A stretch of 64,000 bases of DNA from Druceiella hillmani (taxonomy: Eukaryota > Arthropoda > Insecta > Lepidoptera > Hepialidae). Location of the stretch: contig JAYKKI010000060.1 of assembly GCA_039881145.1 (NCBI GenBank), positions 9,572,501 through 9,636,500 on the forward strand. Reading direction: 5' to 3'. The translations under genes and the position numbers were made by a program. Under the pieces are notes generated by a model. That model did no database searches, had not been told where the DNA came from, and saw nothing but the letters and a program-made list of their open reading frames with translations. This document shows positions 8,750 through 38,933 of this stretch, piece by piece. Each line of letters starts with the position of its first letter. Position 1 is the first letter of the stretch.

Positions 8750-10199
8750 ATTTTTTTTATTAGTGTTTTAATAAAAATTGTTTGTCATTCACCATTCCGA
8801 GATTAGGCAAGAAAAAATGCACGAAATATATTTTTAAAGGCATTTTGTTTCATATTTTTTTAACAAGTCTTTCTCTAAAAATCGACATTTTCAGCTTTAT
8901 GATTGCCTAAAAATCAGAAATAATACAGTAATTTTTTCATCGTATTGATTTTTCTTCAAGAGTGTTCTTACTTGTGGGCCAATGGAAATGTCTTTTATTT
9001 TACCATCATTTAATTAAAAAAAAACAATTTCTAAAAATCTTTAAAATTTTCATCCACAACCTTATCAAAATTTTTCATCAATCCAAGTTTTATATGTAAA
9101 GATGGAAGAATCCTGTTTTCTTATGGAATAAGAGGTTTATATTTGACATTTGATTTGCCACAAACGAAGTCAGTTCTTTTTGGCCCATATTTAATTGAAT
9201 AGTGGTTGTTGGTGTTTCTGTCGTCCCACAAACAGACAAAACAACAATATTTTGTGAACCCTCTCTGTAGATTAAACAATAAAGCAACAAACTTTCCAGT
9301 TGACTTCTTTGTATTTTGTTAACTATAAGATTAGTTACATGTTCTCATATACTACTTTTAAAATCACGCAGTATGCAATAGGTATGAAACGATATTGGCT
9401 GCCATAATGAAGTAATACTGCTTTTAATCAGAATTAGAATAATCAATAAAAGCCTCCACTGCCTTCTATCGTAAAGTATTTCAAGTTCCTCCATTAGTTC
9501 ATTAATATTGTTACAAAAGCAAAGTGATTCAGTGCTTGTAAAAAAAGTTTTACAAGTGCATATTTCTTTTCCTAGGTAAATATAATTTCGTGTTAAGAGA
9601 TAATATAGGTCATCCTTGTAATCTAGATGCCAAAATTTTACCTTTCCTAACAGGAAAATTCAAAACATGGATCAAACCTTTCCACTCGTGTTGTTCAATT
9701 AAATATCTTTGCTGCATGAAGCGATCGGAACATAGATACTCCAATATTTATCTATTTAACTCAACGTCTTCTTCGTCATTACTTGAAATATCTGGTTCTT
9801 CAGGTGTAGTGTCAGATGTTTTAAGAATTGAATATGTCTCACTGTGTGGAATTGGTTTAGATACCGATACTTCATTTGGGTACTCTATTTAGCTTTTTAG
9901 AAATTTATCTATTAAAATTCAAGGCAAAAATAGCAATCATCGTTAAGATTTATTTGTTCCCGACAGATCTTGGATACAGCAAAAGATATAGAAACAGGTT
10001 TTCCTTTCTGGCCAAATATATTATTTAGCACGAAATTTAAAAAATTTGGGGTCCATTCCTTATCTTGCACCATTGAATGATCAAAATAACGTATATAAGC
10101 TTGTATCAACTTTTCAGTGGGAGCTTTTCCTTGAGACTTGGTAATATATTGCCCACAAACATAACAAAACTTATTTGGATAGGTCAGATACTTACACAC
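8750..10199 (-). pseudogene. Relic of a multi-copy arthropod protein family
   Basis: Read on the minus strand, successive frames give one continuous protein broken by frameshifts and stops. First comes a Cys-rich N-terminus (9912-10199: KFCYVCGQYITKSQ, then W.P, ending DDCYFC). Next is an acidic linker with PIPHSE and NDEEDVE (about 9755-9890). Then EWKGLIHVLNFP and ILASRLQG (9610-9725), then RQWRLL plus LKAVLLHYGSQ (9370-9520). Then CFVCLWDDRNTNNHYSIKYG and SLHIKLGLMKNF (9040-9265), and decayed GNHKAEN (about 8900). I recall this motif order from uncharacterised proteins present in many near-identical copies in insect genomes, so a mobile or amplified origin is likely. The molecular function is unknown to me. 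The longest open piece starts at a GTG, not an ATG. At least five frame breaks mean it cannot be functional. Confidence 0.75.
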
Positions 10200-10489
10200 T
10201 TACGACAGTAACTTTTCTCCTTGATTTCGAAAAAAATGGCAGTAATCAATCCAATATACTATTAAGACAATTTCAAGAAAACCAAAACTTGTCATTTATA
10301 TTCACATACACTACTAAGTGGTAAAATATATCTGTAACTTACTTCTTTTTCTTGGCACTATACACGATGGTACATAAAAATAATGTTCATACTATTACTA
10401 AAGAACGTGACGTGTCAGACATCCATATCATTAAGCAATTTTGGTAAAAATCGAATAAGTAATTCAATACAAGTAATATTATTCAAGTT

Positions 10490-10760
10490 AGAATAATTGT
10501 GTCGCACAGTTTTAAATATGGCTGTAAAAGTTTCCGATGAGATTGTTATAACGAACTCGGTCACTTTTGTTAATAAAGAAATAAACGTCTAACATAAATT
10601 TTTGCCATTAGAAGGGAACTTTCGCAAAACTATTCAGAAAGTACTAACGTCTAAATAATTATGAGAGAGGATAAAAAATATACCTGCAATATATAAAAAA
10701 ATTCCTGTCATAATTAAATAGTGCAATAACGTATAAAAATTTCATAATACGTTTTGTCAG
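10490..10760. repeat. Right direct repeat flanking the relic protein gene
   Basis: This is the partner of 8300-8580, in the same orientation and heavily diverged. Best-preserved words are TTGCCATTAGA.GGGAA, GAAAGTACT and GCAATATATAAA. Confidence 0.5.
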
Positions 10761-10955
10761 TTAATACCAATATATAAATATGGAACATGAAATGTTAAAT
10801 AAAGGAAAATTTACACATTCCTGTAATGGAAATTATTCACCCTTAGGAGTACTTGCACTACGAGGGTTGAGCTATTTTTTTCATATTTTCCAGAATACCT
10901 CTGACAATATACTACATAAAATAATGCAAAAATTGTTTAAGATCTTTATCATTAG

Positions 10956-10956
<1 letters not shown>

Positions 10957-10992
<36 letters not shown>
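10957..10992. repeat. (TA)n microsatellite
   Basis: About 18 TA dinucleotides. The plus-strand open frame crossing it is an Ile-Tyr repeat artefact. Confidence 0.95.
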
Positions 10993-10995
<3 letters not shown>

Positions 10996-10999
10996 CCTT

Positions 11000-12235
11000 T
11001 TTATAGGATACTCCATACTATCTTACTGCGATTGGTGCGGGTTAAAATGTTCTGTTGCTATGCTATGCAAGTTCAAATTTTTATGTGAGTGAACTAATAA
11101 AGTTTCCTTTTTTCTGTCTAATGTATGAAACCTCATAAACGACTCTAAAATATAACTTTACTTGCTACATCTTTATTGATAACAGACTGAAGGACAGATT
11201 GAATTATCTTACTTCTCTGTCATCCGTTACATTTTTCTCCAAATACGGATCAGATGTGCAAGTTATTTCTACTCTAATTCGTTCTGCAAGACTGCGTCAA
11301 GGTTGCGTGAGGGTATCTTCTCGCTGATCGAGTGCACACGAGCGTGTGTACTCGAACTTGATACTGCAACTAGGCTATTAAGATTACGGTAAAATTATGG
11401 CTATTTATAACTCTAAATATTTATTGCATTTTCTTTTACAGCTGTTTTGCTATAAACTTTTAAAGTTACTAAAAATAATAAAGGTATGGAAAGGTGTCAC
11501 AGTGTATATTGACTGAATGGAGAGTTAATGTTATATCAATATAGAAACTTATGGGAAAGCTTGTTGATTATATGAAGAAATATACATTTTATATACACTT
11601 TTAGTAATCAATGATTCAATGTTTGTCATTGCCATTCATTTTGTCATCTTGTCCATTTTCAAGAAAGTGTGACGTGATGTTTTTTTGTTTCTTATTCTGA
11701 ATACGCATGTTTACTTACGTACGTATTCTGAATATTCACATGTTTACTTTGAGGATTGAATAAAATCTTAAGACACTTTTTTATAGCAAAATTAATAGCC
11801 ACTCTCCTTATTTATACTTTCTATATTTAGTAATAGGTATGCTGGATTTAATTTCTTTCAACTCTGATGGGAACTACTTTTGAACATGTATTTTTTTAAT
11901 TATTAAATTAATGTATTGATAAACTTTTGACCTCGAGTTGAGTAGCGCTGTATGCTTCTGGCTGTTAAGTAGAAGGACGTAATTATAGTTTATTTCATCA
12001 CCTTATATTGATTACTTAAATCACCTTCATGTGCCCATATACATTAACATGGTGATACAAGACTCGGCAGCCAAGGAATTTTTCTGTTTTAATAAAAAGT
12101 TTAGGAAAGCGACAATTAAATATTATATATTTGGCTTCTCCGTTTATTGTTTGAATTACGTTTCAAAAATATTTCACTCCTGGTATTTGAAGAGTTACAT
12201 CGCATTAGATCATTTTAGGTCAAGCATCAAGTTTT
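11000..12235. other. No gene seen; contains a GC-rich fold-back
   Basis: Apart from the inverted repeat at 11302-11370, I find only AT-rich sequence. The plus frame at 12031-12237 has no recognisable domain. Confidence 0.5.
11302..11370. repeat. GC-rich imperfect hairpin
   Basis: Inner arms CGAGTGCACACG (11329-11340) and CGTGTGTACTCG (11343-11354) pair at 11 of 12 positions around AG. Outer arms GTTGC (11302-11306) and GTATC (11313-11317) find GATAC (11360-11364) and GCAAC (11366-11370). The nested pairing spans about 70 bases and is much more GC-rich than its neighbourhood. It could be a structured RNA or a cruciform. I recognise no family. Confidence 0.5.
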
Positions 12236-12289
12236 AAGAAATAAATTAATAAACAAAATAAAAAACTAAAAAGGCGAAATAAAAAACCG

Positions 12290-13340
12290 TTTCAGAGTGA
12301 CAAACATGCTCATTTTTCAGGGTTCCGCATTTCAAATGGAAACCTTGTAAGATCACTTATCCGTCTATCCATCTATCACAGCCGTTTTTCTCGGGAATCA
12401 CTTAACATAGCAACTTGAAATTTATGCCGAGACATATAACACAAATAACGCATTTTCCAATTGTTCGAACAAACATTTAAAGTTAAATCCATAGTTCGTT
12501 ACGTTACGCGTATTTTATAACTTGAAGTAAATGTATTCTGCTCCGCTAACGTTGACTTTTGAATTAATGACTTTAGTTTAAATAAAAATGGGGCTCTTTG
12601 ATATATCATTTTCGATAAGTATTCATAAGTAAATACAAATTTTCCTAAAAATATATTTTTATACATATACAATTACTTGTGAGTACAAAGTTCCCTTTCC
12701 AAAGTTGAAGAGTCCTCACGTTTCTAAAGAATGTTCAAAATTTAGGACAATTAGGAATAGAAAATAGTAGACTCATTCATCGTCTGATATATTCCAATTT
12801 GAGACGTCATTCCCTTCTTGTGCGTTCAATTTAATCAAGAGTTATTTATTTATAATTATGAAAATGCATTCATTTTTCATACTCGGTAAAAACCGCTTAT
12901 AAAAAATTTTTGAGGTAAAAATTCCGCGTATTGTATGGTTACAAATAAACAAATAATGTACTACATTTTTAGCTATAAACTTATACAATTTACTTTTTAT
13001 TTTAGAAACGGTTTTAGCAATATAAACATCATTTCGATCACGATCTTTTATTTGACTTGGGGTTCTGAAGCCGAACGGCAAAACGAAACCTTTATAACTT
13101 CGCCGTGTCTATCTCTCCGTCTGTCCATTCATTGCGGTCGTCATAAAGACTTTGAGATCAATTGTGAGACACTTTGAGATCAATTGTGAGACACTTTGAG
13201 ATCAATTGTGACGAAATTTTACAGGAAGATATAATTGAATGATGTGGCAAATAGAAGAAAATTTTTTTTTCAAATCGGATTTGGGGATGATTTTTATTTT
13301 CTCACGGACCCCTTCAAGTGAGGGGGATCCCTTTCAACTC
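12290..13340. repeat. Diverged interspersed repeat, copy 1
   Basis: It begins with GGGTTCCGCATTTCAAATGG and 'ATCCGTCTATCCATCTATCACAG', and a second block at 13061 has GGGGTTCTGAAGCCGAACGG followed by CTCCGTCTGTCCATTCATTG. I recall this 'ggttccg...gtccgtc' pattern from abundant repeats in several insect orders. The middle shares AAAGTTAA..CCA.AGTT, CTGCTCCGCTAACG and GAGTCCTCA with 17690-17830 and 22790-23660. No open frame fits a protein. Confidence 0.6.
13149..13211. repeat. 22-bp tandem repeat, 2.9 copies
   Basis: The unit ACTTTGAGATCAATTGTGAGAC is repeated twice in full, then 19 bases of a third copy, all identical. It lies inside the older interspersed repeat, so it is a recent local expansion. 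Confidence 0.92.
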
Positions 13341-13344
13341 ATTA

Positions 13345-14380
13345 AAGAGGCTGATCATAATTAAACCTAAAATATTTAGAACAATATTTCAAAGGACGTC
13401 ACTGTGATTTTTAAGCATGATAAAACCTAAAATTTTTTATAGCATTTTCATCGTAATGCTATTTAATAAATATTTCAATGGAAAAATATTTCAGTTAATT
13501 AATTTTAATCACTTATTAATATGCAAACAAGTTATTTGTCTTACGTCGATCAAAGATGTGCTGGGCAATACATTTACGTGGAGAAAAATAATATTATTTG
13601 TTAAAAATTTAATAGAAATACTATTCTACCCTCAAGCGTTTAAACTTTTAAATGTGCTTATGTATGTATAAGACCTTCTTAGTGGGAGTCCGTTTGTTCT
13701 GAACAGACTAATTTTAAGTCTTTTCTTTCTGTCTTTCATGACCATACACTTTTTCAAGTCTTATCCAAATTTATTGCGTCCATCTCCTTCAGTAGAGTCA
13801 GAATATCTCAGCTTCCTCTAGCTCATTCCTTTTTATTCTCTACCACTTTTATTAAAACAGTTTTTATGTAAATAACCAACTAAAGAGCAAAATTAACATA
13901 CAATAATTTTTTAAATTCACTTATCTAGTAGTTCTCGAGCTATAAACTGTAGAGTTCAGCATCCCATAATGATTTTTAAGACAATACTTTAGCAGTTTAC
14001 GAATACATAGCTAGTCCTTAATTTCATCTCTGAGATGTAAAAATTCTCTAACTTACGGTTATTGGTATATATAAAAATTAATAAAAATAAAGATAAAATT
14101 TAAGCATTTTTCTTTAATATTCTAAGAGTTCTCTAACTGTAAGTCTAATCTCTAACGGTCGACAAAAAATCTTGAAAGGATTGTGGTTTTAATTTGACTT
14201 TGGCCAACCTTTTCGTTCTGCTGTTAATTAGCGTGAACGACTTTCTTAATAAGGTCACCCTGAATAATTACTTTTTAATTTAAACTTCTCTTTACTTATT
14301 GCAACAAATTAATTCATAATTTAAATAGAAAATAATCAATTAAATATAGATTTGTTATTCTGAGTGCTATAAATTAATGT
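13345..14380. repeat. AT-rich DNA; its 3' part is repeated at 18.5 kb
   Basis: The stretch 13990-14100 (CTTAATTTCATCTCTGAGATGTAAAAATTCTCTAAC and onward) aligns with 18560-18650. This extends the homology between this repeat block and the one ending near 18.65 kb. The rest shows no gene. The plus frame at 13417-13671 is low-complexity and hydrophobic, with no recognised domain. Confidence 0.45.
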
Positions 14381-14390
14381 ATTTTTTTCA

Positions 14391-14532
14391 AATATTGAAT
14401 ATATTTGGCGTTAATTTTGTAGAAATTCATTATTCACAATTAAATGAAACTACTATCCCACCTGAAGATGTTGTAATACAACGAAACCTAGGTCGTGGTA
14501 AAGAAATTAAAGGTAGTTTCATTTAATTGTTT
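14391..14532 (+). mobile_element. Small hammerhead-bearing element, copy 1
   Basis: A left arm (ATTGAATATATTTGGCG and about 25 further bases) leads into an exact 18-bp inverted terminal repeat. Its arms are ACAATTAAATGAAACTAC at 14436-14453 and the reverse complement at 14513-14530. Between them lies the ribozyme. The flanks carry TTTTTTTCA on both sides (14382-14390 and 14533-14541), a possible but low-complexity target duplication. It has no coding capacity, so it would depend on proteins from elsewhere. Small elements carrying minimal hammerheads are known as retrozymes and as terminal parts of Penelope-like elements. Which of these it belongs to cannot be settled here. Confidence 0.75.
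14457..14499 (+). ncRNA. Minimal type I hammerhead ribozyme, intact core
   Basis: All conserved core bases are present in order. CUGAAGA is at 14462-14468, and stem II GUUGU/ACAAC (14470-14474 with 14478-14482) has an AAU loop. GAA follows at 14483-14485. Stem III pairs A14486, C, C with G, G, U14493 across a two-base UA loop. C17 is at 14494, so cleavage is predicted after it. Stem I closes as CCAC (14458-14461) with GUGG (14495-14498). The very short stem III is typical of the hammerheads of Penelope-like elements and animal retrozymes, which usually work as dimers. One unpaired U (14469) precedes stem II, a mild departure. Activity is inferred from the fold only. Confidence 0.75.
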
Positions 14533-14539
14533 TTTTTTT

Positions 14540-15228
14540 CATTTTATTGCTCTCCAGTATTATTAGCGATCGGATGGTATTTTACATAATCTGATATTGA
14601 GCAAATATCTCTAATATGATTTTATTAAAGTGTAAAATTTGTCTTATTATCTAAGTATATGCACAATGTGGTTACTAGTATAATTAATATACAAAAATTA
14701 AGAAATAACGGCCAAATGAGAGACTGGTAATTACCCCTGAAAAGTTACATAAAATATTATTTGCGTATATAGTCCTTAGTCACACAAACCTAAAATATAA
14801 ATTGCTCAGATATAAATAACACTCTGTAAAAAGTGTCCCTATACTGCGTAGCAAAGTAAATAAATTAAATGCTAGAATTTTCAAAGAAGTGCATTACCCA
14901 CTATTTTTTTTAAATAAACTGCTTTAGATTGCAATAAGGCTAGTTACGTAGTTACGAGATATTTGATTACAATTTCTGAATTAGTATTTAGTGCAGTACC
15001 CCGTCAATTATTTGACAGAAATATTTCCAGAGAAATGAAACATGTTCCATCACTTTCAAATATTAAATTAATTGCAATGCATTAAATTTTTGTCCGAGAG
15101 CAAAAATTTGTTTGCGTTTATTTTCAATTTACAATATATATGCGTTTAACGCGTTATTTAAAAAATACACACATTATACATATTTTAGGTAAAAATATAG
15201 GCTATATACTATTAAGATTTGTTGACTT
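14540..15228. other. AT-rich spacer between two ribozyme elements
   Basis: No open frame or repeat of note. It separates copies 1 and 2, which lie about 0.7 kb apart. Confidence 0.55.
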
Positions 15229-15229
15229 C

Positions 15230-15408
15230 ACAATTAAATGAAACTACGTGATGTTAGTCACGGATATTAGCAAAGAACCATCTTTGCTAATATCCCACTT
15301 GAAGATGTTGTAATACAACAAAACCTAGGTCGTAGCAAAGAATTTAAAGAAAGTAGTTTCATTTAATTGTGAATAATGAATTTCTACAAAATTAACGCCA
15401 AATATATT
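15230..15408 (+). mobile_element. Small hammerhead-bearing element, copy 2
   Basis: It has the same exact 18-bp inverted termini (15230-15247 and 15353-15370). Here the shared arm lies on the right, as the reverse complement (ends GCCAAATATATT), while the ribozyme still reads on the plus strand. The cassette is therefore inverted relative to the arm compared with copies 1 and 4. A perfect 15-bp stem (15262-15276 with 15281-15295, loop ACCA) sits directly before ribozyme stem I. In copies 1 and 3 this hairpin is missing or incomplete, and in copy 4 it is imperfect. Confidence 0.75.
15294..15337 (+). ncRNA. Hammerhead ribozyme, core mutated
   Basis: The fold is recognisable from its match to copy 1. 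However, the first core base C3 is U (UUGAAGA at 15299-15305), and G12 of the GAAA box is A (ACAACAAAACC). Both positions are essential in known hammerheads, so this copy should be inactive. Stem III and the GUC cleavage triplet are unchanged. Confidence 0.65.
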
Positions 15409-15429
15409 AAAAAATTTAAATATTTAATA

Positions 15430-15660
15430 TAAAATTGCAGCAATCAATAAGCTTCCATTTTGGCTATCAAATTTAATAATATTTTAAATAAAGCCACATT
15501 AAATAAAACGTATTAAACAGTAGAGAAAATTTTAATTATTTGCGAGAAATTAAAATCGCGAGCGAAGCCTCCCTACAAAACTATTTAACATTCACATATA
15601 ATATATTTCTTATTAAGTTTAATGAAAATACGTAAGTGTAATGAAAATTTAATGTATTGT
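15430..15660. repeat. Short interspersed repeat, partner at 16.44 kb
   Basis: GCAGCAATCAATAAGCTTCCATTTTGGCT (15437-15465) matches GTAGCAATCAATAAGCTTCAATCTTGGCT near 16448. The copies lie in the same orientation about 1 kb apart. They bracket the minisatellites at 15664 and 16084. Confidence 0.6.
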
Positions 15661-15663
15661 CCT

Positions 15664-15722
15664 TACGATAAGAAATATGGTGGTGGTTTATGTATGATAA
15701 GAAATATGGTGATTGGTTTAAT
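15664..15722. repeat. Imperfect tandem duplication ACGATAAGAAATATGGTG
   Basis: Two copies of about 28 bases (CGATAAGAAATATGGTGGTGG and TGATAAGAAATATGGTGATTGG) differ at a few positions. Confidence 0.7.
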
Positions 15723-16083
15723 TAATATTAGGAATGGTATTAAACTGAAATATATGAATAATGATGCATTGAATGTTAAAAAATAATCTTATTTTCAAAA
15801 TATTTTCTAATCAAATTTATTATCATGGTCTGTCTGAAAATCCTTACATGTTATTTTGGTCTCATCTTGACTCCAAAATGGATGGGAACTAAGACTTTGT
15901 TAGAGTATATAATAATAATATAATTTGATTGTGCTTCAAACTTAAAAATAATCTTGTTAAGTAATTTAAATTTTATAATGCAATTTAAGAGTTAATATCA
16001 TCACCTAGTAATATATTGTATGAGTGCGTTATAAGCCCTGAAGAAATAATTAAAAAATGCATCTTGTTAATGTTTTGTGCCAA

Positions 16084-16206
16084 AATTTAATAAAAATTGT
16101 ACCCGAAGGTAATGAATTTAATAAAAATTGTACCCAAAGGTAATGAAATTAATAAAAATTGTACCCAAAGGTAATGAAATTAATAAAAATTGTACCCAAA
16201 GGTAAT
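16084..16206. repeat. 31-bp minisatellite, four copies
   Basis: The unit AATTTAATAAAAATTGTACC plus CAAAGGTAATG is repeated four times, head to tail. It differs only by a G/A in the first copy and by AATTT versus AAATT at the junctions. There are no spacers between copies, so this is not a CRISPR array. Confidence 0.93.
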
Positions 16207-16590
16207 ATGACAAAATCAAATATTATTCTTATTATTCACTTGAATACTTAAACTGAAAGGAATAGCTGAATGAAAATATAATTTTCTAATATAATTCTTA
16301 ATGAATTATATTAGGCAATTTCGATTTAAATAAACGAATATATAATCGATTGGCAACGATTCTTATATAATGGAAGCCGAAACAGTCACCAAGTACAAGA
16401 AAACCACGTTAACTCTGTATAAAAATTTAACCATTTAAAAAAACATTGTAGCAATCAATAAGCTTCAATCTTGGCTGCAATATTTTTTGAACGCAACCTG
16501 TAACACAGGTCAATTTTGAAAGGGAAATTTAAGTCGTAATAAATATTTAAAAAAACATTAATGAATACCATTACTTTTGAAAGAAAGTTT

Positions 16591-16696
16591 TCTTCCGAAA
16601 GAAATTGATTACTCGTGAAATTAGTCGAGATAAAATGATTATATTAAGAGGAAGATCTCTTCCGAAAGAAATTGATTACTCGTGAAATTAGTCGAG
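16591..16696. repeat. 39-bp direct duplication, period 67
   Basis: The 39 bases beginning TCTTCCGAAAGAAATTGATT occur exactly at 16591-16629 and 16658-16696. The second copy opens a 68-codon plus-strand frame (ITREISRVKITSFVSTRG and onward, to 16875) that reads somewhat protein-like. I recognise no family for it and do not call a gene. Confidence 0.85.
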
Positions 16697-16842
16697 TTAA
16701 AATTACTTCCTTTGTAAGTACAAGAGGTACCAGAGGTTTGACATCTATGCTGAAATATGTCAATGAAATATGTCATATTGTATCAATCATTACTCTCCAT
16801 TACATTAAGTTACAAGAGAGCATCTTTTTCAAATTATGTATA

Positions 16843-16888
16843 AAAACTATGAAACAGAGTAAAGTAAAACTATGAAACAGAGTAAAGT
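16843..16888. repeat. Perfect 23-bp tandem duplication
   Basis: AAAACTATGAAACAGAGTAA plus AGT is present twice with no gap or change. Confidence 0.92.
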
Positions 16889-17341
16889 ATTGAGAGGAAT
16901 CAATTTCGATAATTATTTTAAGTTCAAAATAGCATTTATTTAGCCAACTGTACGTAAGCAAATGCTTTTTTTCATAATTTAATATAATATGAGCCCCATT
17001 GGTAAAATACATTAAATTATTTTATAGTTAAAAATATATTACTATATTTACTTATTATCGACCACATAGGCGCGGAGTTTTTCTCACTAAATATTAGGTC
17101 AGCCTCTCTGTTTATTATGTAACAAAATGTTTGTACCTTTTATATGTCAATATCCTTTTTATAAACAAACTTTTAGTACAAATGATCTATGCGATACTTT
17201 AACATACAGAAGGAACAATATAAATATTGTACATTATCTTTTGACATTTAAAGCAGGTACTGAATACTTTATTACTTTTTTAGTGCTAATACTTAAACAA
17301 AATTACAGCCTACGAAGTAAGTAAAGTTTGGTTTCGAAAAT

Positions 17342-17501
17342 TAAGGTATGTGTTACTGTGCAAAAAACTTTAAAGAAACTAAAGCGATTAAGGTATGTGT
17401 TACTGTGCAAAAAGGTATGTGTTACTGTGCAAAAAACATTAAAGAAACTAAAGTGATTAAGGTATGTGTTACTGTGCAAAAAACATTAAAGAAACTAAAG
17501 C
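17342..17501. repeat. About 46-bp minisatellite with a truncated copy
   Basis: The unit TAAGGTATGTGTTACTGTGC...AAAGAAACTAAAGCGAT occurs three times in near-complete form (from 17342, 17411 and 17458). One truncated copy (17389-17411) consists only of the first 23 or so bases. Differences are single bases (CTT/CAT, GCGAT/GTGAT), so the expansion is recent. Each copy contains GGTATGTG, which resembles a splice donor. Confidence 0.9.
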
Positions 17502-17689
17502 TATAAAGTGAAAAGCAGAAAGTGATAAAATTACAAATTGAACTTCGTGTATAAATGGTTCTTGAATTAGAAATTAATTTTCGTTAGCCTTTATTTTCAA
17601 AACGTTTATTAATGTTAAATAAGTGATTAAGTTAGATTATTTGAGTGTTTCTCCAGTCAAGATATTTAACACAATTAAAATATTTTAAA

Positions 17690-17830
17690 ATTTTTCAAAT
17701 AAACATTTAAAGTTAAGCATACAGTTCGTTACCAATATTTATTTTAAAACTTAAAGCATTATAGAACATATCGTTACAGGAGTATTCCGCTCCGCTGGCC
17801 ATTACTCGTACTTTTCCAGTTTATTTATAT
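17690..17830. repeat. Diverged interspersed repeat, copy 2 (partial)
   Basis: AAACATTTAAAGTTAAGCATACAGTTCGTTACC and ATTCCGCTCCGCTGGCCATTACT match the middle of the repeats at 12290 and 22790. The flanking parts are not clearly conserved. Confidence 0.6.
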
Positions 17831-17861
17831 TAAAACAAAATTCTAATTAATAATTATTTCT

Positions 17862-18003
17862 AATATTGAATATATTTGGCGTTAATTTTGTAAAAATTAA
17901 TTAACAATTAAATTAAACTACGTGATGTAGTATTATTTCTACTTTCTTTTAAGTTCTTTACCACGACCTAGGTTTCGTTGTATTACATCTTCAGGTGGGA
18001 TAT
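17862..18003 (-). mobile_element. Small hammerhead-bearing element, copy 3 (one end lost)
   Basis: The shared arm (from AATATTGAATATATTTGGCG) is on the left, followed by a one-mismatch copy of the 18-bp terminus (17904-17921). The internal cassette then runs in reverse, so the ribozyme is on the minus strand. The sequence continues past GGGATATTAGTGAAGATC without reaching the second terminus. This end is truncated or replaced. Confidence 0.72.
17961..17998 (-). ncRNA. Hammerhead ribozyme, stem II shortened
   Basis: On the minus strand, stem I CCAC/GUGG, the CUGAAGA box, GAAA, the CCUAGG stem III and GUC are all intact. However, three bases are missing from the 5' side of stem II relative to copies 1 and 4 (UGUAAUACAAC instead of UGUUGUAAUACAAC). 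At most three pairs remain there, next to unpaired bases. Hammerheads tolerate short stem II, so weak activity is possible. Confidence 0.65.
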
Positions 18004-18009
18004 TAGTGA

Positions 18010-19880
18010 AGATCTTTATAAAATACTAAATACTATATCTTACATGTTACTTATTTAAATGTGTAAACTTTACATGAAACTTAATATATAGAACACACAC
18101 TTATTCAGAATTATATTAGTAAATCATTATTAAATTTTTCGCTTCAATATTCAAACGTTTTTGAAATTCGAACTTCTGTTTTCATTACGAATATACTTTT
18201 TAAAATCTTAACCAAACCGACGCCAATTCAGTTAAAGCAAATTAACTTTTTAACTCAATTTAAACATGAGTATAAAATTTTACGAATCCATTACCGTTTT
18301 CCCTGTTATTTTTTCTGGTATCCTACATTTTCAATATAACCTATTTGTATCGATAAACAGTTGAGTAACAGAATTTACATAAGTATATTCCCAAAATGTA
18401 TCTTGTTTTTAATTCCCAAAATGTATCAAGCTAAATCCTAAAATTTCTCATTCCACAATCATTGGTAATCATACTTTTCACGTCTACAAAATTTACGTGC
18501 AACCGTATAAAAAACGTAAAAAGGTCTGAACGATTATGCTTTTACATTTCTTAAGTATATAATAAATTCTTAATTTATATCGTAGATGTAGAAATTCTCT
18601 AACGTTCTATTATTCATGGATATAAGAATTATTAACATAAACGTAAAAATAATTTTATTATATAAGTAGAATTATATTTACTTATTTTACATTGAAATGT
18701 ATTTATAATTAATGAAGTCCTATTAGAAATATTTTCTCCAATTAGACTATTTAGAATATCGCACAGAAAATAACATTGTACAATAACTAATCAACGATTT
18801 GTAACCCTCGTAATGCTCTGAATAACGAACCCTTATTTAATTAAATTTCCTTTGTGGCAATGGATTAAAGAATTAATTCGATTCAAGATATAAGAAGAGA
18901 TCAAAGTGAAAATATAATTATGCGGAGTAGACTTGTTGAGAAATCCGTTCATGTGAATTAAGAGTGAAACGAAAATACCGGCCATAAATATCTCTAAAGC
19001 CAGGCTAAAACCACAAAGATTTCAAGATTGTTTATGGGTCGTTGGATATATTTCGAGAAACGTTTAATATATTTCGTTTTATTTTGTTATATATTTGATT
19101 AGAGTAATCATTTTGGGCATAAAATAACTTTTTTTGGTTTATCGTGATTATGTAATCAAATCAGAGTTATGTTTTTTTACATAAAAATAAACGCGGTCTG
19201 TTTTAGTATCGCCCAATCGAAACGCCCTTTATAAAAAGAACAAATGCTCAATAAAATTTTTCAATATAAACGCTGAAAATATGACAAACTGTATATAGTT
19301 ATTACTATGCATGGTTTTAGAACTCTAAGATGAAATTGAATAGACATTCTGGGGAAGAAATATGACCCCTGTGCAGATACTGATTACAGGTTTTTAACCT
19401 TCCCTTTGTACTTATTTTAGAAGTTTTTGGTCTTTTTCTCTCGAGTTATCGATACCGATGTAATCCCATTTCTTCTTCCAATTAAAATGAATCTGTAAGT
19501 TAAATTATAATAAAAAATACGAATAAAAAGAAAATGGAATAATTAATTATAAAATATAAGATAATTTCTCTAACTACTACGACGAAAATCAAAATTTTCA
19601 GTCGAGAGTAAAATAAGAATTTGTAATTAAATTTTCTAATAGCGATTTTCTAACTTAGCGATATATTAAGCAAACTTTCCAAAATAAAGTACTGTGGCCA
19701 ATTGGAACAGCTGCATAGTACTTTAGAAAAAGTAATCTACGTCTTGACCTACGCATTGAGTAAGTACCAGAAGTGATGAGAAATAGGCAACCAATCAAAT
19801 TATGCGGTTGCAATATCACGAAACTTCTGAGATGGAAGCGTGTGGTGGACATAGCAAATGAGCTACGATAATACCAGCAA
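18010..19880. other. AT-rich DNA, no gene seen
   Basis: Apart from the segment at 18560-18650 that matches 13990-14100, I see nothing. The minus frame at 19655-19852 abuts the LINE tail and could be its decayed 3' region, but shows no motif. Confidence 0.5.
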
Positions 19881-19885
19881 ACTCA

Positions 19886-20146
19886 TACCATATCATCATC
19901 ATAATAAAGCAGCCTTCTATTATGGCGTAAGCTTTGTTCAATCTGCACCACTCGGTTCTATTTTAGGCTATATTGATCCAGTTTGTTCCGCCACTTTCCT
20001 TATGTCATCCTTCCATCTCATTTGCGGCCGCCCAACGTCTGTTTTGCACTCCCACAGTCTCTACGAGAATTTTGCATCATAAATCCGACTTTCGAGTAAT
20101 GTGACCAGCCATCTGCTATTTAAGTTTCGCCGAACCAAACCTCATG
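19886..20146 (-). pseudogene. LINE reverse transcriptase C-terminal tail, decayed
   Basis: Minus-strand frames give the conserved tail of a non-LTR retrotransposon polymerase in pieces. QMAGHITRKSD (near 20120) corresponds to the usual W.GH..R. VGRPQMRWKDDIRKVAEQ (about 20000-20055) corresponds to GRP..RW.DDI.KVAG, and TNWINIA..RTEW (about 19945-19990) to the NW...A..R..W end. It carries an in-frame stop and frameshifts, and the catalytic palm is absent, so this is a 5'-truncated dead copy. This motif set is typical of the RT tails of RTE, jockey or CR1-like LINEs. I cannot assign the clade. Confidence 0.8.
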
Positions 20147-20149
20147 AAT

Positions 20150-22785
20150 TAATAATGGTGTAGAAAAAAAGTAAAGTAAAGCCTATCTATATATAAGTGC
20201 TCCAGGTGAAAGTTCCAAAAAAAGGAATAAAAGCTGCTAGTCGGTGCACAGTATATTGTCATTAAGACGGTAGTTAGAGGGGTAAGTGGGCATTTGTTTA
20301 AGGGGAATTTGTTCACCTTCTATTAAATAAATAAAAGTTAAGAAGGAGTAGAACTCGCAATACGAGGATGAAAATTTAATTTTCACAAGGTAATTGGTAA
20401 GGGCAAGGTTTAATATTTTGCCTCCTAAAAATTAAACAGCAAGTATAATTTTGATAAGGTGTAAAAATAAGGGCATAATGCAAAAATTCTACGATCTAGG
20501 ATAATCGCTGTAGTTCTCTTCTAATCTTCTAGCCCCATTTCATAAACCTTATTTTTTATGATTTTTGGTTTAGTAATTTCGGAAATAGGAGGAGAGAGAT
20601 GCTCTTTTTAAACATTAAATTTAATATTGTGCATTTTTTATTGCTCACATTGTATCAAAATCCTTTTAAAACATATTTAAAAAAAAACTATTAGCTAGTG
20701 TAAGCTAAAAAGACTAAGCATCACTTTTTAAGTATTTTCAAATTGTGTTTAGTTTGTAAACCATTTCGACGCTTGAGAGATCTAGGTATAAACAAAGTTA
20801 GTCGAGCGGTGAATTTTACGATTTTATTTAGGTACCTGTTTAAATGATCAATTTAATAAAGGTTAACGGGAAAAATAAATACATACAAATTTTTTATGGA
20901 AATAATTTTATAAAGTGGGCGTTTATATCGAAATATAGTTTAAGGCGTTTTTTCCACGTGTTAAGCGAAATTTTTTCCACGAAATATGTAGTATTTTAAA
21001 AATTCTTTGCAGTGACGCATTATTTGTACGCTTGCTGTGTAAGATTAACTTTAAGGATTTCTTTACCATTTGAGACGTTGCTTTTTTGAAAGTATTGAAC
21101 GAATTTGGTCCATTTGCGAACTTATCTTAAATTTTAATCTAACAATTTTTTTGGCAAGTTTCATTTTAATCGAATAAGAAGTGTGACTTTTTGCAAGGTG
21201 ACCTCTCCTTTGTAGTCTGAGAACAGTGATCGATGAGAATCTGGGGAAATAATCTAATATTCATTTCAAAAACCTATAAATGAGATTCCGTCCGTGGAAT
21301 TGTGTTAAATAAAATTTTGTTCAATTTTATGTAAAAAGGTAGAAACATTTTTTTAATTTTTTTTACAAAATCATTGATATTTTCTACCGTAGTTTCAAAC
21401 TGCAAAATTTTATGCGTTTACAGATTAAATTATCAAACATTTAATAGATCAATCGACACGATAAAATTGTACATAATTTACTCCTAGTTTAACTAAATAC
21501 AAACCATTCTTAATACCGAATACATACATAGTCTCCAGAAAAAAATTAAAAACTATTGTCTACAATGCAAAAATTCATGGAAAACTATTAACGAATTGGT
21601 CAGCTAAAACAGCATAAAATTTTATATACTTTGAACACATTGCTGAAAAACCCTAGAATTTTATCATTTGTGCTGATAAATTGTATACTTTTATATAATC
21701 CATTTTTCTTCATGCCGAAGAATTCACTAAACGCGTCTTCATAACATGATTTATAAAATTTTGTTTTTCTTAGCCAACTGTGCCTAAACTTTTAACTCAA
21801 TGTTCGTAAACAAAGGAACGATTTTCCACCATACGAGCCCAGCTGGTTACGTAAATCATATCAAGTTATCTCTATTCACGAGTGGATACTCGTGATAATA
21901 ATCTTTTGTAGTATTTTTTCGTCCCCGATGCAGGAAAATTTTGGTAACTTTTACAAATTCATAGACTAATGACAAATAGTCTTAAAATACAAATTTTCAC
22001 CTTCGGCACGATTTCCATATTCTGTGTTTTCCTGCAATATACTTAATTATCCCCTTACACGCCACGACCTTCAATTAGATTATAATAATTAAAAATAATC
22101 TCCTAATCCCTCAACATAGAATTGTATATTGCTCTAAATAATTTTTTAACAAGTTTCTTTACTAGACTATCGAATCAAATGAACCCAAAAGTAAAATATC
22201 AACCCTCGTTGTCTGTACTTAAAAATCCTCACAACTTACGTTACTTAACTTTAACGTAACTTTCTTTTATACCCCGTCCTTATCCTTTCCCTACCCCTAC
22301 GATACCATTGCAAAACTTTTATTTTATTTTATTTTCTATTATTTCTGTACATTTATTATTCATATATATAATAATACCGTTATTTGGTGACGTGAGTAGA
22401 ATTAAGTAGTATTTACGAATCATTTACGGTCCATAACGGTACATGTTTTATTACTTGAGTCATTGTGGTTAGCTATAAGCGATTGCTCTTATAACAACGA
22501 GTATATTTATCTTTCCAACTTGACGTAAATTTTTCTAAATGAATTAAGAAATATTTTCATGTAATAAAAACACTGTAAATACGCCACTGGATAAATTGTT
22601 GGCAGGATTAAATATTTATGCTGGCGTTGACTAAACAAATCACATTTTTAGTGGTAGGTTACTTGAATAGCTTTATAACCTAAGGAGGTATTGGAAGTTT
22701 TACTTAAAAAGCAAAACACAACTTAACAAAATTAAAGAGAATTTAACCTCAGAGTTTATTTTCAATGTTTATTGAGAAAACGTAT
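20150..22785. other. AT-rich DNA, no gene seen
   Basis: Plus and minus frames are short and unremarkable. A small perfect hairpin lies at 21876-21895 (TCACGAGT/ACTCGTGA around GGAT). The sequence becomes C-rich on the plus strand near 22260-22310 without a coding pattern. Confidence 0.5.
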
Positions 22786-22789
22786 GTAA

Positions 22790-23660
22790 ATTGGGTGTAT
22801 CTTTAGCAAAACATTTCCAACAACAACATAATTTCAAATTGTTCAATCTCACGTTCAAAGTTAAGCCCACAGTTTGATATTTTATATGTTTCTTTAGAAC
22901 TTAAGCTTATGCATGCATATTGTGCTCCGCTAACAATTACTTTTGAAGTAATACATTTACTCTACCTTTAAAAATAATTTGTGATGAACTCTACATAAAC
23001 ATAAAAACAAGATCTAACCAAGTAACTTTGACATTGAATATATAATTTTAAATCGATTTTCGTGACCAAATACCGACTTTTCACTAGACATATTTTTCCG
23101 AACACATGTGTAATCATTTTCAATAGTGAAGTTTTCATTCCCAAATTTCAAGAGTCCTCAGGACTCAATAGAATGTTTCAAATTAATTAAAATATGATGT
23201 TTGATCCAAATATTGGCAATAATGAAAGTTGAGTATATTCGAATTTTAGATGTAACAATTTTCTTTTAATGTACACTCGATTTAAGTGATTGGGTTGTTT
23301 AATTATAAATTGAGAATGTGTTAATTTTTCACATGTAGTAAAATTACCAATATAAATCTATAAATACGGTAGTCCACATCTTATATTATTGATCCTAATT
23401 AAACAAAATAGCACCTTTATACCCATAACCTTGCATAACTTTTAGTTAAAATGTAAAGCAAAAATGGAACGCCATATGTATCATTAAACTCATAATCTTT
23501 AATTTTTATTAAGATTCTGCGATTTAACGATAAATACGCTACCATTTTCCTACCTCTACCTGTCTGTCCATTCATTGTAGCATCATAAATCTTTCATTAT
23601 AAAGCCTATTGTGATGGAAATTTACAGAGTCGTAATTGGGTTACGTGAACACACAAAAAC
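22790..23660. repeat. Diverged interspersed repeat, copy 3
   Basis: It shares TTCAAAGTTAAGCCCACAGTTT, TTGTGCTCCGCTAACAATTACTTTTGAA, AAGAGTCCTCAGGA and CCTGTCTGTCCATTCATTG with copy 1, in the same order and at similar spacing. That supports a common element of roughly 1 kb. Confidence 0.6.
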
Positions 23661-23775
23661 AGAAAAACTATTTTTTGAAGTCGAAGGGCAAAAGAATAAT
23701 TCTCTAACCTCTGAATGAAGTTGAAAACGTCGGAACTTACCTACCAATGAAACGGAGCATGATGTTACGTGTGTT

Positions 23776-23882
23776 TTGTGCATAGGCGCTTGCGTGCCTG
23801 CATGCGTCCATTTGTGTCCCTACATGTATATGCGTGTGCGTGTGTATATATGTTTGTGTGTTCTTGCGTGCGCCTGAGAATG
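23776..23882. repeat. GT/GC-rich alternating purine-pyrimidine tract
   Basis: Runs of TGTG, GCGTGC and TGTATATG make a mostly alternating tract within AT-rich DNA. Z-DNA formation is a possible property. The overlapping open frames on both strands (Cys/Val-rich plus, His/Thr-rich minus) are composition artefacts. Confidence 0.6.
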
Positions 23883-23989
23883 CGTAAGATGAATGGCCAT
23901 TTTTATTTTGATGTAATAATACATAAATTAATATTAATGTACGTAACAATACGCACTTCACATTTACATTATTATGGATAAATATGCGT

Positions 23990-26130
23990 GTGTATCCAAA
24001 TATTTGAGTTAATATTATTATTTATATCTGCAAATTTCACCACATGACTTTTGTACGATTGCACAACATAATCTGTACAATTTGCATAGATCAATGGACC
24101 CTGAAGCGGCACATCCAAGACTGGTTGGGAGGAACTATCCTAAAAACAATTGGCTATTGCCAACCTAATGTAGGATGATATGTGTTTTACATTGTACGGT
24201 TAAACTTATGTGTCTGGAAATGTATCTTTGGAAAATGAAATATATACTTTCAACCACAAACAAATTTCATGAATCAACTTCTTTTATTAGTAAAGTTCAT
24301 ATATATATTATACATATTCCATAAACTTCCCCACATTCTGAGCTTCCAAAACCCACATATTTTTGGAATTGAAATACAATCTAGATTGAAAAAAATCTAG
24401 AGATTAACGTAAAAAACAAACAAAACAAAAAATTTCGTGGCTTTATCACTGTTTCGCCTCTGCCAATCATAGCGTAATAAAATATAAATTGTAATTTTGC
24501 TTAAAGTAGTAAGTATAATTTTTGAAATTGGATATTATAATTTTTGAAATTGATATTTCGCACAAAAATTACTAGTCTTCTTGACATAACTTTTGCAAAA
24601 ACAAAAAAATTCACACGGATATTTCGTAACAAATGTTGAAAAACTATTAAGAAATACACCAATAAAATGTATGGAGGGAATAATAATACCAAAAAGGGCT
24701 AAATAGACATGTAATAAATACATTTATTCATCTTTCAAGACAAGGTGCCGTAACTCTTTTCAAGTTTAAGAAATTACTGGGATAAACATTTGGATCAATT
24801 TAATAATCCCATTAAAATTATTGTTCAACACATATTTCAACAAGAAATAATTATATTACGATGATATTATATAAATACACATAATGTAGTCATAAATTTG
24901 TAAGCGTAATTTAAAAAGTCTATTGTTTTTTTTTACACAATACAAACCTATCGAAAGGACACAAAAAATCTCAAATACCATATTTTTTTTGTAAAAGTGA
25001 AGTTATAATATGTGTATTACATTATTGTCCTTAAAAAAACTTCAAAAACTTTTATCAACAAAAACTTTTATATAACTAAATTGAATTTGAGACAATGGCG
25101 ACTGTAGTAAATTCCATCGTTATTTACTACACATATTTTAACTTGTAAAACGATCCAAAAGCAGTGGCATTTACATTCCTTGATTTTATATAAATATAAA
25201 GTACAGTGAGATAGCAAAAAGTCGGTAATATTTACGCTGTAAAAATCTACGTTCTAAAATTGTTCAACGAGATACGATATAAATTCCAATGTCAACTTAT
25301 TAATTTTAAGTTGAATTAGCAAGAAATTTCATAAATTATAAAAGTAGGAATAATGTTGCTTAAATAATTCTTCACTATCAATTTAAATAAAAACTTTATC
25401 GACGTCCTTATCTGTCTGTTTAGTCGAACACCTACTGATATGTTACATAAATTGGAAAAAAGTTCATTGATTTTAATTATAGATTAATAATAAATTGGCC
25501 AACAAATTTTGTTTTGAGTATTAATTCGAGTTTATAATTCTGGAGATAAATATTATTTTAGTTTATAAATGTTTACACAATATAACATACTTATCGTTCT
25601 TTCATATTACATTTTCTCCACATCTCGTAGCCCCACTTTTAAATTTTCACTTTTTATTTTGAGTCCATTTTAAATAAAAATTTAAATGTTATCAAAATTA
25701 AAATATAGAAATATGAATTAAATAAACTTAGACAAGCATAGTAACGAACATCGATAATTAATGCTTGTACGAAACATGATTGGACCACCAAACAATAGTC
25801 AAAAAAATCAATAACAGATAAAAATAAATTAGACATTCTCTCAAAAAATGTCAGCTTCAATAAATAATTAACAAATAAAGTTTTTTTACATTAAAATTTC
25901 TCATACACTTATTTTATATACCCATCTAATACCCAAAAGCCACGTATTATGTTTCTAGAAGACCTGGAGCTGCAACTCCAATATCAACTTTGCCTTTTTA
26001 AAACTTTGAGCATTATAAGAAAAGACGGAAATATTGGAGACACCCTAAAGCGTTAAGAGGGAGTAACAAATTCAATGTTTTAAAAAAGTCTCTATGTGTA
26101 TATTTCTATTTAAATTGCGCTGCCCATCGT
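23990..26130. other. AT-rich DNA, no gene seen
   Basis: A short less AT-rich patch near 24095-24175 has no frame I can place. The segment at 25310-25400 (AAGAAATTTCATAAATTATAAAAGTAGGAATAATG) recurs near 27270-27360, so it is part of another diverged repeat. Confidence 0.5.
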
Positions 26131-26145
26131 CCAAGTGGAAATTTT

Positions 26146-26367
26146 TGAAATTTTCATAAAAATAATGGTAACTATTTCTTAAACACTTTCCCCATTATTA
26201 GCATATTATAAAACCATAGCGTGCTTTTTCAATAAATATTTGGCAAATGTACTTTAAAACGATTTTGGAAATTTTCTTAAAAATAATATTAACCATTTCT
26301 TAACCACTTTCCCCATTATTAGCATATTATAAAACCATAGCGTGCTTTTTCACTAAAAATTTGGCAA
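26146..26367. repeat. About 120-bp tandem duplication
   Basis: Two near-identical copies start GAAATTTTC(A/T)TAAAAATAAT and both contain CACTTTCCCCATTATTAGCA and ACCATAGCGTGCTTTTTCA. They lie immediately upstream of ribozyme element copy 4. Confidence 0.9.
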
Positions 26368-26410
26368 CAATTTATTTAAAATGGTATTTCTCATACAAAA
26401 CATAAATAAG

Positions 26411-26418
26411 CAGCACAC
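26411..26418. repeat. Target-site duplication, left
   Basis: CAGCACAC directly precedes the element and is repeated at 26623-26630 directly after it. Confidence 0.7.
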
Positions 26419-26622
26419 ATTGAATATTGAATATATTTGGCGTTAATTTTGTAGAAATTCATTATTCACAATTAAATGAAACTACGTGAAGATCAGATGG
26501 AATATTATCTTTACTAATATCCCATCTGAAGATGTTGTAATACAACGAAACCTAGGTCGTTTATAAAGAAATTAAAGAAAGTAGAAATAATACTACATCA
26601 GGTAGTTTCATTTAATTGTAAA
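26419..26622 (+). mobile_element. Small hammerhead-bearing element, copy 4, with target duplication
   Basis: This is the most complete copy: left arm, exact 18-bp termini (26468-26485 and 26602-26619), ribozyme on the plus strand, and an 8-bp direct repeat CAGCACAC on both sides. The duplication defines the element as about 204 bp, from ATTGAATATTGAATA to AATTGTAAA. It argues for insertion by a mechanism that staggers the target. A 14-bp inverted repeat with one mismatch (26494-26507 with 26515-26528) would trap the CUG of the ribozyme core in a hairpin. No coding sequence is present. Confidence 0.8.
26521..26563 (+). ncRNA. Hammerhead ribozyme, weak stem I
   Basis: The core is intact: CUGAAGA at 26526-26532, stem II GUUGU/ACAAC, GAAA at 26547, CCUAGG, and GUC ending at 26558. 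The 3' side of stem I reads GUUUAUAAAG where copy 1 has GUGGUAAAG. Only a wobble and one A-U pair form with CCAU, so cleavage is likely poor in isolation. Confidence 0.65.
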
Positions 26623-26630
26623 CAGCACAC
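26623..26630. repeat. Target-site duplication, right
   Basis: CAGCACAC matches 26411-26418 exactly. Confidence 0.7.
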
Positions 26631-26634
26631 CTTA

Positions 26635-28050
26635 ATACAGTGATTTTTTTGAATTTAATCCATATAACCACTGCTTTAGAATATTTAATTTAATTATCTA
26701 AAACAATACGTATACAATTTGCATCTCAAAAGAAGCAAGTCGTGAAAGTTTACTGATTTATATCAAATAATTTTATTCCATCGTCAGTTTTAAATCTTCC
26801 TTTTCCTCTTTGTCATCCGTTTCCTCGTCGTCAAAGAAAAATGAACTATTATTCGTCCTTTTGTTTTCCAAAATATTTCTCTGCTGAAAGATAGCGAAAT
26901 TCGATGCTATCAGGCTGTTGAATGAAATATGAAACAGGTTTCGTTTAATAACATGAAATAAGACACAACTGCGATATTAGGGATTATGGAATATTATTTT
27001 ACAATTAGAAACTGCTTCGGTGCTTCAATTCGATGATGCGGATTTTTTTTAATTGTTTTCGTCACGGACGAGCTCGTAATTATTTTTTTTTATTATAAAC
27101 TTAATATAATTAATTTGATATTGACTGTGTATGTTTGACGATATGCATGTGTCGGGCTTTGTAATAATAACCTATCCTTACAAAGTTTAGAACACAGCAA
27201 TTACCAGCAATTATTAGGAAGAAATTTTATACATATTTTTATCATTTTATACAACACAGCAATTATTAGCAAGAAATTTTATAAATTATAAAAGTAGAAA
27301 TAATATTTAAATTACTTCTGGATAGTTTAATTAAAGAACATGATCAAAAGTCGTCTTCGTACTTCACCTTTTTATTTTCCTGGAAAACAATTCTTATGGG
27401 GAAATATTTCTTAATCCCAGGTGATTTCAAATTGCCACTGTGTAGAAATAAGTTATATGACCTTCGTAAAGCATACTTATATAACTTATATTCTCTAATT
27501 GTGTTCTATAATTTGAAATAAGGTTGAGGGAAACAATAACGATTTAATGCTAAATTTTGGAAATTCATTTAAAAACCTCTCCACTTCGGAAAGATTTTAT
27601 GAAGAATGTTTTATGAAGAAAATACCAGACGCCAAAGTCTACATGACTAGATTATCAAATGGAGGAAATTAAATTAGATCTAGTTATTCCCCATAAATAT
27701 CAGCCCAAAGAATGTGTGCCTACAGGAAAAGTTTTATAAAGTGCACTGTAAAAGGAAATTAAGCGACCTGGACCACAATATGTGACGCTACGTCCAATTT
27801 GCATATTATATGTTTGTAAAACAAATCCATCTAATTTCCATTGTGTCTTTTTATCTTTATTCAAACGATATTAGAGTATGTTAGGGAAAATAATAAAGAT
27901 TTGTTAACAAAATGAAGTGAGAATATCTACGAACACATTTATGAGGACAGTTTTCATTTGTTAATGTCACGTGCAGCTTTACCATCCCTGATTTTAAATA
28001 CCATCTGAAACAACATTTCTCCCTCAATGCCAACGATAACTGAATGTCCT
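26635..28050. other. AT-rich DNA, no gene seen
   Basis: The segment 27260-27360 is the second copy of the repeat seen at 25310. The CTTCCTTTTCCTCTTTG..CATCCGTTTCCTCGTCGTC tract near 26800 is pyrimidine-rich. It could encode an acidic Glu/Asp run on the minus strand, but no longer frame supports that. Confidence 0.45.
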
Positions 28051-28059
28051 AATTTTAAG

Positions 28060-28150
28060 TTTCCGTAGCTAAAGGAACCCAGTAGAACTCGAATAGAATA
28101 GTTGGGGCAATGTTGTTTGTCCGCCCGTCGATGAGAAACTTATAACTCCT
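28060..28150. repeat. Fragment of the 'ggttccg...gtccgtc' repeat type
   Basis: AAAGGAACCCAGTAGAAC followed by TTGTTTGTCCGCCCGTCG and a ..AACTTATAACTCC end resembles the start of the repeat at 12316. It is one short decayed copy. Confidence 0.4.
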
Positions 28151-28781: not shown

Positions 28782-28835
28782 AAAAAAAGGAAGAAGGAAG
28801 AAGGAAGAAGGAAGAGAAAATGGAAAAGGAAGTAA
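28782..28835. repeat. Purine-rich (GGAAGAA)n tract
   Basis: A GAAGGAA-type simple repeat lies inside the LINE relic. On the minus strand it gives a spurious Phe/Leu/Ser run. Confidence 0.85.
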
Positions 28836-29420: not shown

Positions 29421-29424
29421 AAAC

Positions 29425-38830: not shown

Positions 38831-38865
38831 AAAAAAAAATAAAAAAAGAAAAAAAAAAAAAAAAG

Positions 38866-38868
<3 letters not shown>
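38831..38868. repeat. A-rich tract
   Basis: A run of A with occasional T or G leads directly into the (AT)n array. Confidence 0.9.

Positions 38869-38933
<65 letters not shown>
38869..38933. repeat. (AT)n microsatellite
   Basis: About 32 uninterrupted AT dinucleotides. It has no counterpart at the same place in units 2 or 3. Confidence 0.97.

Follow-up and report, generated by a model that had tools for sequence, protein, structure and literature searches.

A hammerhead-like motif within a short dispersed repeat with inverted arms in the lepidopteran Druceiella hillmani

The window analysed here, a stretch of 64 kb from the genome of Druceiella hillmani, is AT-rich (28% GC) and contains no open reading frame of at least 150 amino acids. 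Four dispersed copies of a small repeat lie within 12 kb of it (table 1), a count which had been given in an earlier note on this DNA and was confirmed by our search of the window. A covariance model built from the four copies recovers each of them in the window with an E value of 5e-12 or better, and the same scan found nothing else better than E 1.4. Much of the architecture described in the earlier note has been borne out: the span given for copy 1 fits a unit that we find between two TTTTTTTCA repeats, its 18-bp inverted arms are perfect, and the whole is a small repeat with inverted arms and no long reading frame. The arm-to-arm unit of 95 bp also exists, but it turns out to be an internal-deletion form of an element whose fullest version, copy 4, measures 204 bp. 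When the copies are aligned in the sense of the motif, copy 1 lacks sequence on either side of the motif that copies 2-4 hold to differing degrees, and for this reason we consider it a shortened derivative. The outer segment that we call flank A is incomplete or has diverged in part in copies 2 and 3, and the second arm of copy 3 is not recognisable.

Table 1. Positions in the window of the four copies of the repeat, their parts and the hammerhead-like motif of copy 1
Feature	Position	Strand	Remarks
Copy 1, 142 bp, shortened internally relative to copies 2-4	14391-14532	+	bounded by TTTTTTTCA
TTTTTTTCA repeats bounding copy 1, low-complexity	14382-14390 and 14533-14541		
Outer flank A, 44 bp, present in all four copies	14391-14434	+	44/44 identical, copy 1 versus copy 4
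Copy 1, left inverted arm, 18 bp	14436-14453	+	
Copy 1, stem I 5' strand CCAC, pairs with 14495-14498	14458-14461	+	sequence
Copy 1, CUGAAGA, hammerhead-like, C3 to A9	14462-14468	+	motif scan
Copy 1, extra U between A9 and stem II	14469	+	sequence; match uses the one-extra-base option
Copy 1, stem II GUUGU/ACAAC, loop AAU	14470-14482	+	sequence
Copy 1, GAA, A15.1, 3-bp stem III (ACC/GGU), loop UA, C17; predicted cut after 14494	14483-14494	+	
Copy 1, stem I 3' strand GUGG	14495-14498	+	sequence
Copy 1, right inverted arm, 18 bp	14513-14530	+	
Copy 2	15227-15411	+	flank A downstream of motif
Copy 2, arms, 21 bp, perfect	15227-15247 and 15353-15373		
Copy 2, hairpin	15262-15295		
Copy 3, motif on minus strand	17862-18007	-	flank A downstream in motif sense
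Target-site duplication CAGCACAC, left copy	26411-26418	.	flanks copy 4
Copy 4, fullest, 204 bp	26419-26622	+	flank A upstream
Copy 4, arms	26465-26485 and 26602-26622		
Target-site duplication CAGCACAC, right copy	26623-26630	.	flanks copy 4

Other repeats are scattered through the window. A tandem unit of 121 bp with 92% matches (26141-26381) lies just upstream of copy 4, and a scan of positions 10000-30000 found other short duplications in tandem, matching at 97-100%, at 13149-13211, 16087-16206, 16843-16889 and 17343-17482. Further downstream, the regions 37560-42211 and 51371-60097 share four diverged repeat pairs, 68-79% identical; because these pairs keep the same order, they suggest that a segment, which may be a gene, was duplicated long ago, and their translation showed no conserved reading frame. 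Another pair of about 600 bp (52742-53350 and 57472-58055, 66% identical) is perhaps an old transposable element. Ten short open reading frames, chosen by eye, were submitted to a domain scan, in which the only trace of reverse transcriptase was a weak RVT_1 match at 29071-29352 on the minus strand (16.5 bits versus a cutoff of 29.6), which may come from a degraded non-LTR retrotransposon; the same ten frames revealed no transposase and no autonomous relative.

Direct reading of the plus strand of copy 1 from 14458 to 14498 gives CCAC-CUGAAGA-U-GUUGU-AAU-ACAAC-GAA-ACC-UA-GGU-C-GUGG, in which the core bases of the hammerhead are complete and stems I, II and III measure 4, 5 and 3 bp. Every base conforms to the consensus except one, an inserted U (14469) that separates A9 from the first pair of stem II, a G-C. 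The elements singled out in the earlier note, namely CUGAAGA, GAAA (14483-14486), CCUAGG, the GUC ending at C14494 and a 4-bp stem I, are therefore all present, and its core bases and stems are real; what cannot be kept is its reading of the motif as a plain consensus hammerhead, since the extra U had been overlooked. In a descriptor scan allowing one extra base, copy 1 alone satisfied the stem requirements besides the core, and a near-motif scan of the window with one core mismatch allowed likewise returned copy 1 alone. The other three motifs carry lesions, in the core for copy 2 and in the stems for copies 3 and 4. Copy 2 has C3 changed to U (15299), G12 changed to A (15320) and one mismatch in stem I; copy 3 keeps 12/12 core bases together with stem I and has lost 3 nt of stem II; copy 4 also retains 12/12 core bases (C3 at 26526, C17 at 26558) with a broken stem I, reduced beside the core to a U-G and an A-U.

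An additional base at this very position, between A9 and G10.1, is found in the plus-strand hammerhead of the chrysanthemum chlorotic mottle viroid, where, according to a review, the extra A10 is mildly harmful and its change into U increases the rate of trans-cleavage 3-4-fold (PMC3705267). Because of this effect, the extra U of copy 1 is compatible with activity. The parallel has its limits, for the viroid carries A where the repeat has U and is a replicating circular RNA, an unrelated context (PMC3705267).

How strong is the resemblance to known hammerheads in statistical terms? Across the whole 64-kb window, every Rfam family stays below its gathering score. The Hammerhead_1 model (RF00163) gives 16.6 bits to copy 1, about half of its gathering score of 34, and 16.9 bits to copy 3, which thus scores no worse than copy 1, whereas copies 2 and 4 are absent from listings extending to E 10. 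For copy 1, the E value is 0.14 in a search restricted to 150 bases and counted over 4227 families, and becomes about 0.014 when recomputed for this single family across the whole window. The type I hammerhead proposed in the earlier note consequently does not pass the covariance check. The expectation by chance was estimated from 2400 shuffles of the window preserving dinucleotides, with a descriptor tolerating one extra base. Stems of at least 4, 5 and 3 bp, the lengths found in copy 1, occur 0.0008 times per shuffle (2 matches in 2400), stems of at least 4, 4 and 2 bp 0.006 times, and the loosest setting yields 0.08 matches per shuffle; a smaller set of 40 shuffles, scanned with a descriptor that differed slightly, produced one match. 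The motif is unusual for a single window, yet within reach when many windows are scanned. A fair null would be less stringent than these shuffles, because stems come readily from the many palindromes of the element.

A stem I extended past a bulge on the 5' strand is a layout found among natural hammerheads of type I, and a comparable one can be drawn for some copies of the repeat. An outer stem I of 6 bp, with a 5' bulge, is possible in copy 2 (UCUUUG/CAAAGA) and copy 4 (UCUUUA/UAAAGA), has one mismatch in copy 3 and is missing in copy 1. It includes one double-sided change, from A-U to G-C; 154 of 500 shuffles did as well, and 13.8% of random positions offer an outer helix of at least 6 bp. 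We have consequently set aside the outer stem as proof of a ribozyme, and also rejected covariation as proof of an RNA fold, for palindromic arms can in addition copy each other. Moreover, the same outer-stem bases of copy 2 are predicted to form a 15-bp hairpin with an upstream repeat, and the predicted upstream hairpin of copy 4 incorporates CCAUCUGA and with it the first core bases; because of these hairpins, competing structures would be preferred in a full-length RNA of either copy. The predicted fold of each is a cluster of hairpins that the arms close, with a z value of -5.67 for copy 4 and -10.46 for copy 2. For the motif of copy 1, the predicted minimum is a rod-like hairpin of -11.7 kcal/mol versus -5.0 kcal/mol with the core held open, a constrained fold that did not form stem III. 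This is a caution and no disproof of the hammerhead, because folding programs ignore tertiary contacts and the constrained fold was without stem III.

If the ribozyme were the part of the element that selection preserves, its core should stand out from its surroundings, as the earlier note had anticipated. We counted, cell by cell and excluding gaps, the departures from the majority base in the four-copy alignment of the motif region; the class elsewhere includes the columns of the outer stem I, and 3 of its 38 columns were dropped for having under three letters. Departures amount to 2/48 in the 12 core columns, 4/86 in the stem columns and 6/129 elsewhere, so that no conservation of the core beyond its flanks is seen (Fisher p 1.0 for core versus elsewhere), in a comparison of four copies that has little power, with about two core changes expected. 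Both core departures belong to copy 2, and copies 1, 3 and 4 show 0/36. Among the 18-nt arms, six of the seven that are readable are identical and the seventh is off by one base; this corresponds to 1/126 departing cells versus 12/263 in the motif region, a difference that is not significant (Fisher p 0.07). In sequence terms, these figures give no indication that the ribozyme is what has been preserved, and hint that the ends of the DNA may be.

The arrangement of the copies bears on how they spread. Copy 4 is flanked by a clear target-site duplication of 8 bp and copy 1 by the low-complexity 9-bp repeat, and no clear duplication is seen in the sequence flanking copies 2 and 3. A shared word of at least 8 between two 25-bp flanks occurs at 97 of 5000 random positions, a base rate that ignores that CAGCACAC is GC-rich in AT-rich DNA. 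Relative to flank A, read outward, copies 1 and 4 have the motif in sense, and copies 2 and 3, in which flank A lies downstream of it, have it in antisense; a flip-flop arrangement can be followed at 14391-14453, 15353-15411, 17862-17921 and 26423-26485. Because the orientation of the motif differs among copies, the core must have been inverted relative to flank A at least once. Such an inversion is expected when the two arms of a foldback element recombine or serve for a template switch, and is unexpected for a retrozyme copied from a unit-length circle.

Several classes of mobile DNA were compared with these features. A hAT-like MITE has terminal inverted repeats at both outer ends together with an 8-bp target duplication. 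By eye, the outer ends of the repeat, AATATTGAATATATTTGGCG and TTYACAATTAAATG, are not similar, and its inverted arms are subterminal on the side of flank A, which does not fit this class. The broader class of MITE and foldback elements, which combine inverted repeats with foldback potential, agrees with what is found here, copy 3 being an exception for its second arm. With Galileo, Foldback and Tetris the repeat shares inverted repeats, a strong foldback potential, a variable internal length and internal rearrangement, as well as a precise target duplication, which is seen here in one copy; it differs from them in having flank A outside one arm, so that the inverted arms are subterminal on one side. 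Galileo, Foldback and Tetris are also larger than this element of about 140-205 bp.

We conclude that this short non-coding repeat probably moves as DNA. The interpretation that we prefer, with a probability of roughly 0.57, is that of a MITE-like foldback element whose core inverts between the arms, the hammerhead being either fortuitous and favoured by palindromes or a decaying relic. Such an element, devoid of a long reading frame, would consist of a palindrome-packed core enclosed by a pair of 18-21 bp arms, together with flank A, which measures about 44 bp; it would have been moved as DNA by a transposase encoded elsewhere, its core being inverted through recombination or template switching between the arms. 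The hammerhead-like motif would not drive the element, and would represent a by-product of juxtaposed palindromes, namely CATCT-GA-AGATG as seen in copy 4, TGTTGT-AAT-ACAACA and ACCTAGGT, or else a relic that is no longer maintained. This foldback interpretation is supported by the arms, the four dispersed copies, the 8-bp duplication and the opposed orientations of the core, by the near identity of the arms and the perfect match of flank A between copies 1 and 4, and by the uniform rate of departure across core, stems and elsewhere, along with the lesions in three of the four motifs. The predicted folds also speak for it, given the arm-closed hairpin clusters of copies 4 and 2 and the rod-like minimum of the copy 1 motif. 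Against it stand the complete set of core bases in copies 1, 3 and 4, the Rfam score of copy 3 equalling that of copy 1, the rarity of the strict motif in shuffled windows, the confinement of a convincing target-site duplication to copy 4, the absence of a transposase or autonomous relative among the ten short frames scanned, the low power of a conservation test on four copies, and the fact that flank A and the arm end do not resemble inverted repeats of each other, unlike in an ordinary MITE. The idea that the ribozyme defines or drives the element has found no support, given that no covariance match exceeds the threshold and that the core is no better conserved than the rest, two outcomes of the kind which the earlier note had named as counting against its reading, the second being seen here among four copies and on a test of low power.

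The same facts can be arranged differently. A possible reading, to which we attach tentative weight, takes the motif as a true minimal hammerhead of type I that is now decaying: the sequence from which all four copies descend would have had a working ribozyme with the extra U10, a stem I extended past an 8-nt 5' bulge and a palindromic stem III allowing dimers, which was passively carried or once processed the transcripts of the element, most copies having since lost core bases or stems. The intact cores of three copies and the Hammerhead_1 scores of copies 1 and 3 argue in this direction, as does the favourable effect of U at the extra position (PMC3705267). So does the self-complementarity of ACCUAGGU, a feature of repeat-type hammerheads thought to work as dimers; in a study on the interspersed-repeat hammerheads of Aedes and other species, an inactive Aedes hammerhead is suggested to need a dimer through its palindromic stem III (PMC3088659). 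The outer stem I of copies 2 and 4, with its double change, would also fit, but the frequency of equal changes in shuffles and of equal helices at random positions weakens this argument, and the strand of copy 2 that also pairs over 15 bp upstream means that arm-to-arm copying can explain the change. Scores at about half the gathering threshold, and a core not more conserved than its surroundings (a weak test with four copies), further count against a once functional ribozyme. We consider unlikely a combination of both views, in which a foldback element mobile as DNA would carry a functional hammerhead with the extra U10 and use the flipping of its core between the arms as a reversible switch at the RNA level. 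If true, the ribozyme would be sense or antisense to the remaining parts of the element and only one isomer would yield cleaved transcripts, a switch within a transposon that differs from retrozymes and Penelope termini. Distinctly improbable, in our opinion, is the notion that the element serves as a hairpin source of small RNA, either a MITE-derived microRNA or siRNA, through dicing of the arm duplex. Copy 1 does fold as one hairpin with a perfect arm duplex and the best Rfam match of the locus is mir-7552, at 34.2 bits; however, this match lies below the gathering score of 59, the papers found that mention mir-7552 concern fish, and the identity of the arms is equally expected of a foldback transposon. 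The match, being sub-threshold and carrying a name known from fish, probably reflects a generic AT-rich hairpin, and a microRNA gene was set aside.

The retroelement interpretations deserve the same scrutiny. Animal retrozymes, as described so far, consist of tandemly arranged units of about 150-450 bp that each contain a hammerhead (PMC7229834), and insects are named there among the taxa with retrozyme-like repeats. The repeat of D. hillmani resembles these metazoan non-LTR retrozymes in being small and AT-rich, with a core like that of type I and no long reading frame, and the earlier note had proposed that it could self-cleave and circularise; its transcripts would then ligate into small circles to be reverse-transcribed into the genome. 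Yet it differs from the elements of that description (PMC7229834) in being dispersed, with inverted arms, an extra U and a motif damaged in 3/4 copies. None of the four copies is in tandem, either in the window or according to a tandem-repeat finder run over 10000-30000, and the core occurs in both orientations relative to flank A. With one dispersed motif per element, a circle of unit length cannot be released, and the window yielded no further motif even with one core mismatch allowed; copies 1 and 2 do share a strand with predicted cuts about 840 nt apart, yet copy 2 is without C3 and G12. The circularising reading accordingly found no support and was set aside as very improbable. Penelope-like elements and Terminons harbour minimal motifs of type I, which may work in dimeric form (PMC7761336, PMC11167929, PMC6155905). 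A Penelope-like element would be expected to encode a reverse transcriptase with GIY-YIG and to have the motif within pseudo-LTRs. The motif of copy 1 shares with them a very short self-complementary stem III and a dispersed distribution (PMC7761336, PMC11167929), but no Penelope pseudo-LTR was recognised beside the element; with no partner recognised, no reading frame of at least 150 residues in the window and ten short frames scanned, a Penelope terminus was also set aside. Finally, the clusters of hairpins enclosed by the arms, with two core orientations present in two copies each, recall the terminal hairpins of parvovirus type, which consist of nested palindromes closed by a stem and occur in flip and flop orientations. 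That the repeat is an endogenous remnant of such a hairpin seems exceedingly improbable, since the window holds no long reading frame, three element words of 20-21 nt have no exact match in IMG/VR and the 8-bp target duplication fits a transposon. Exact element words were also absent from GTDB genomes, and neither of these collections is aimed at insect genomes.

We know of no earlier hammerhead in a foldback element of DNA type rather than in a retroelement. Among the matches listed from the titles and abstract openings of open-licence literature, none reports a hammerhead in a foldback DNA element. If the motif of copy 1 cleaves, it would be the first case of this kind known to us, and would offer a natural instance of U at the extra position that the work on the viroid found favourable. 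If it does not cleave, the repeat would convey a caution of wider use: palindrome-rich repeats can assemble convincing minimal hammerheads, and the conservation of core and stems across copies should be checked before a ribozyme is called.
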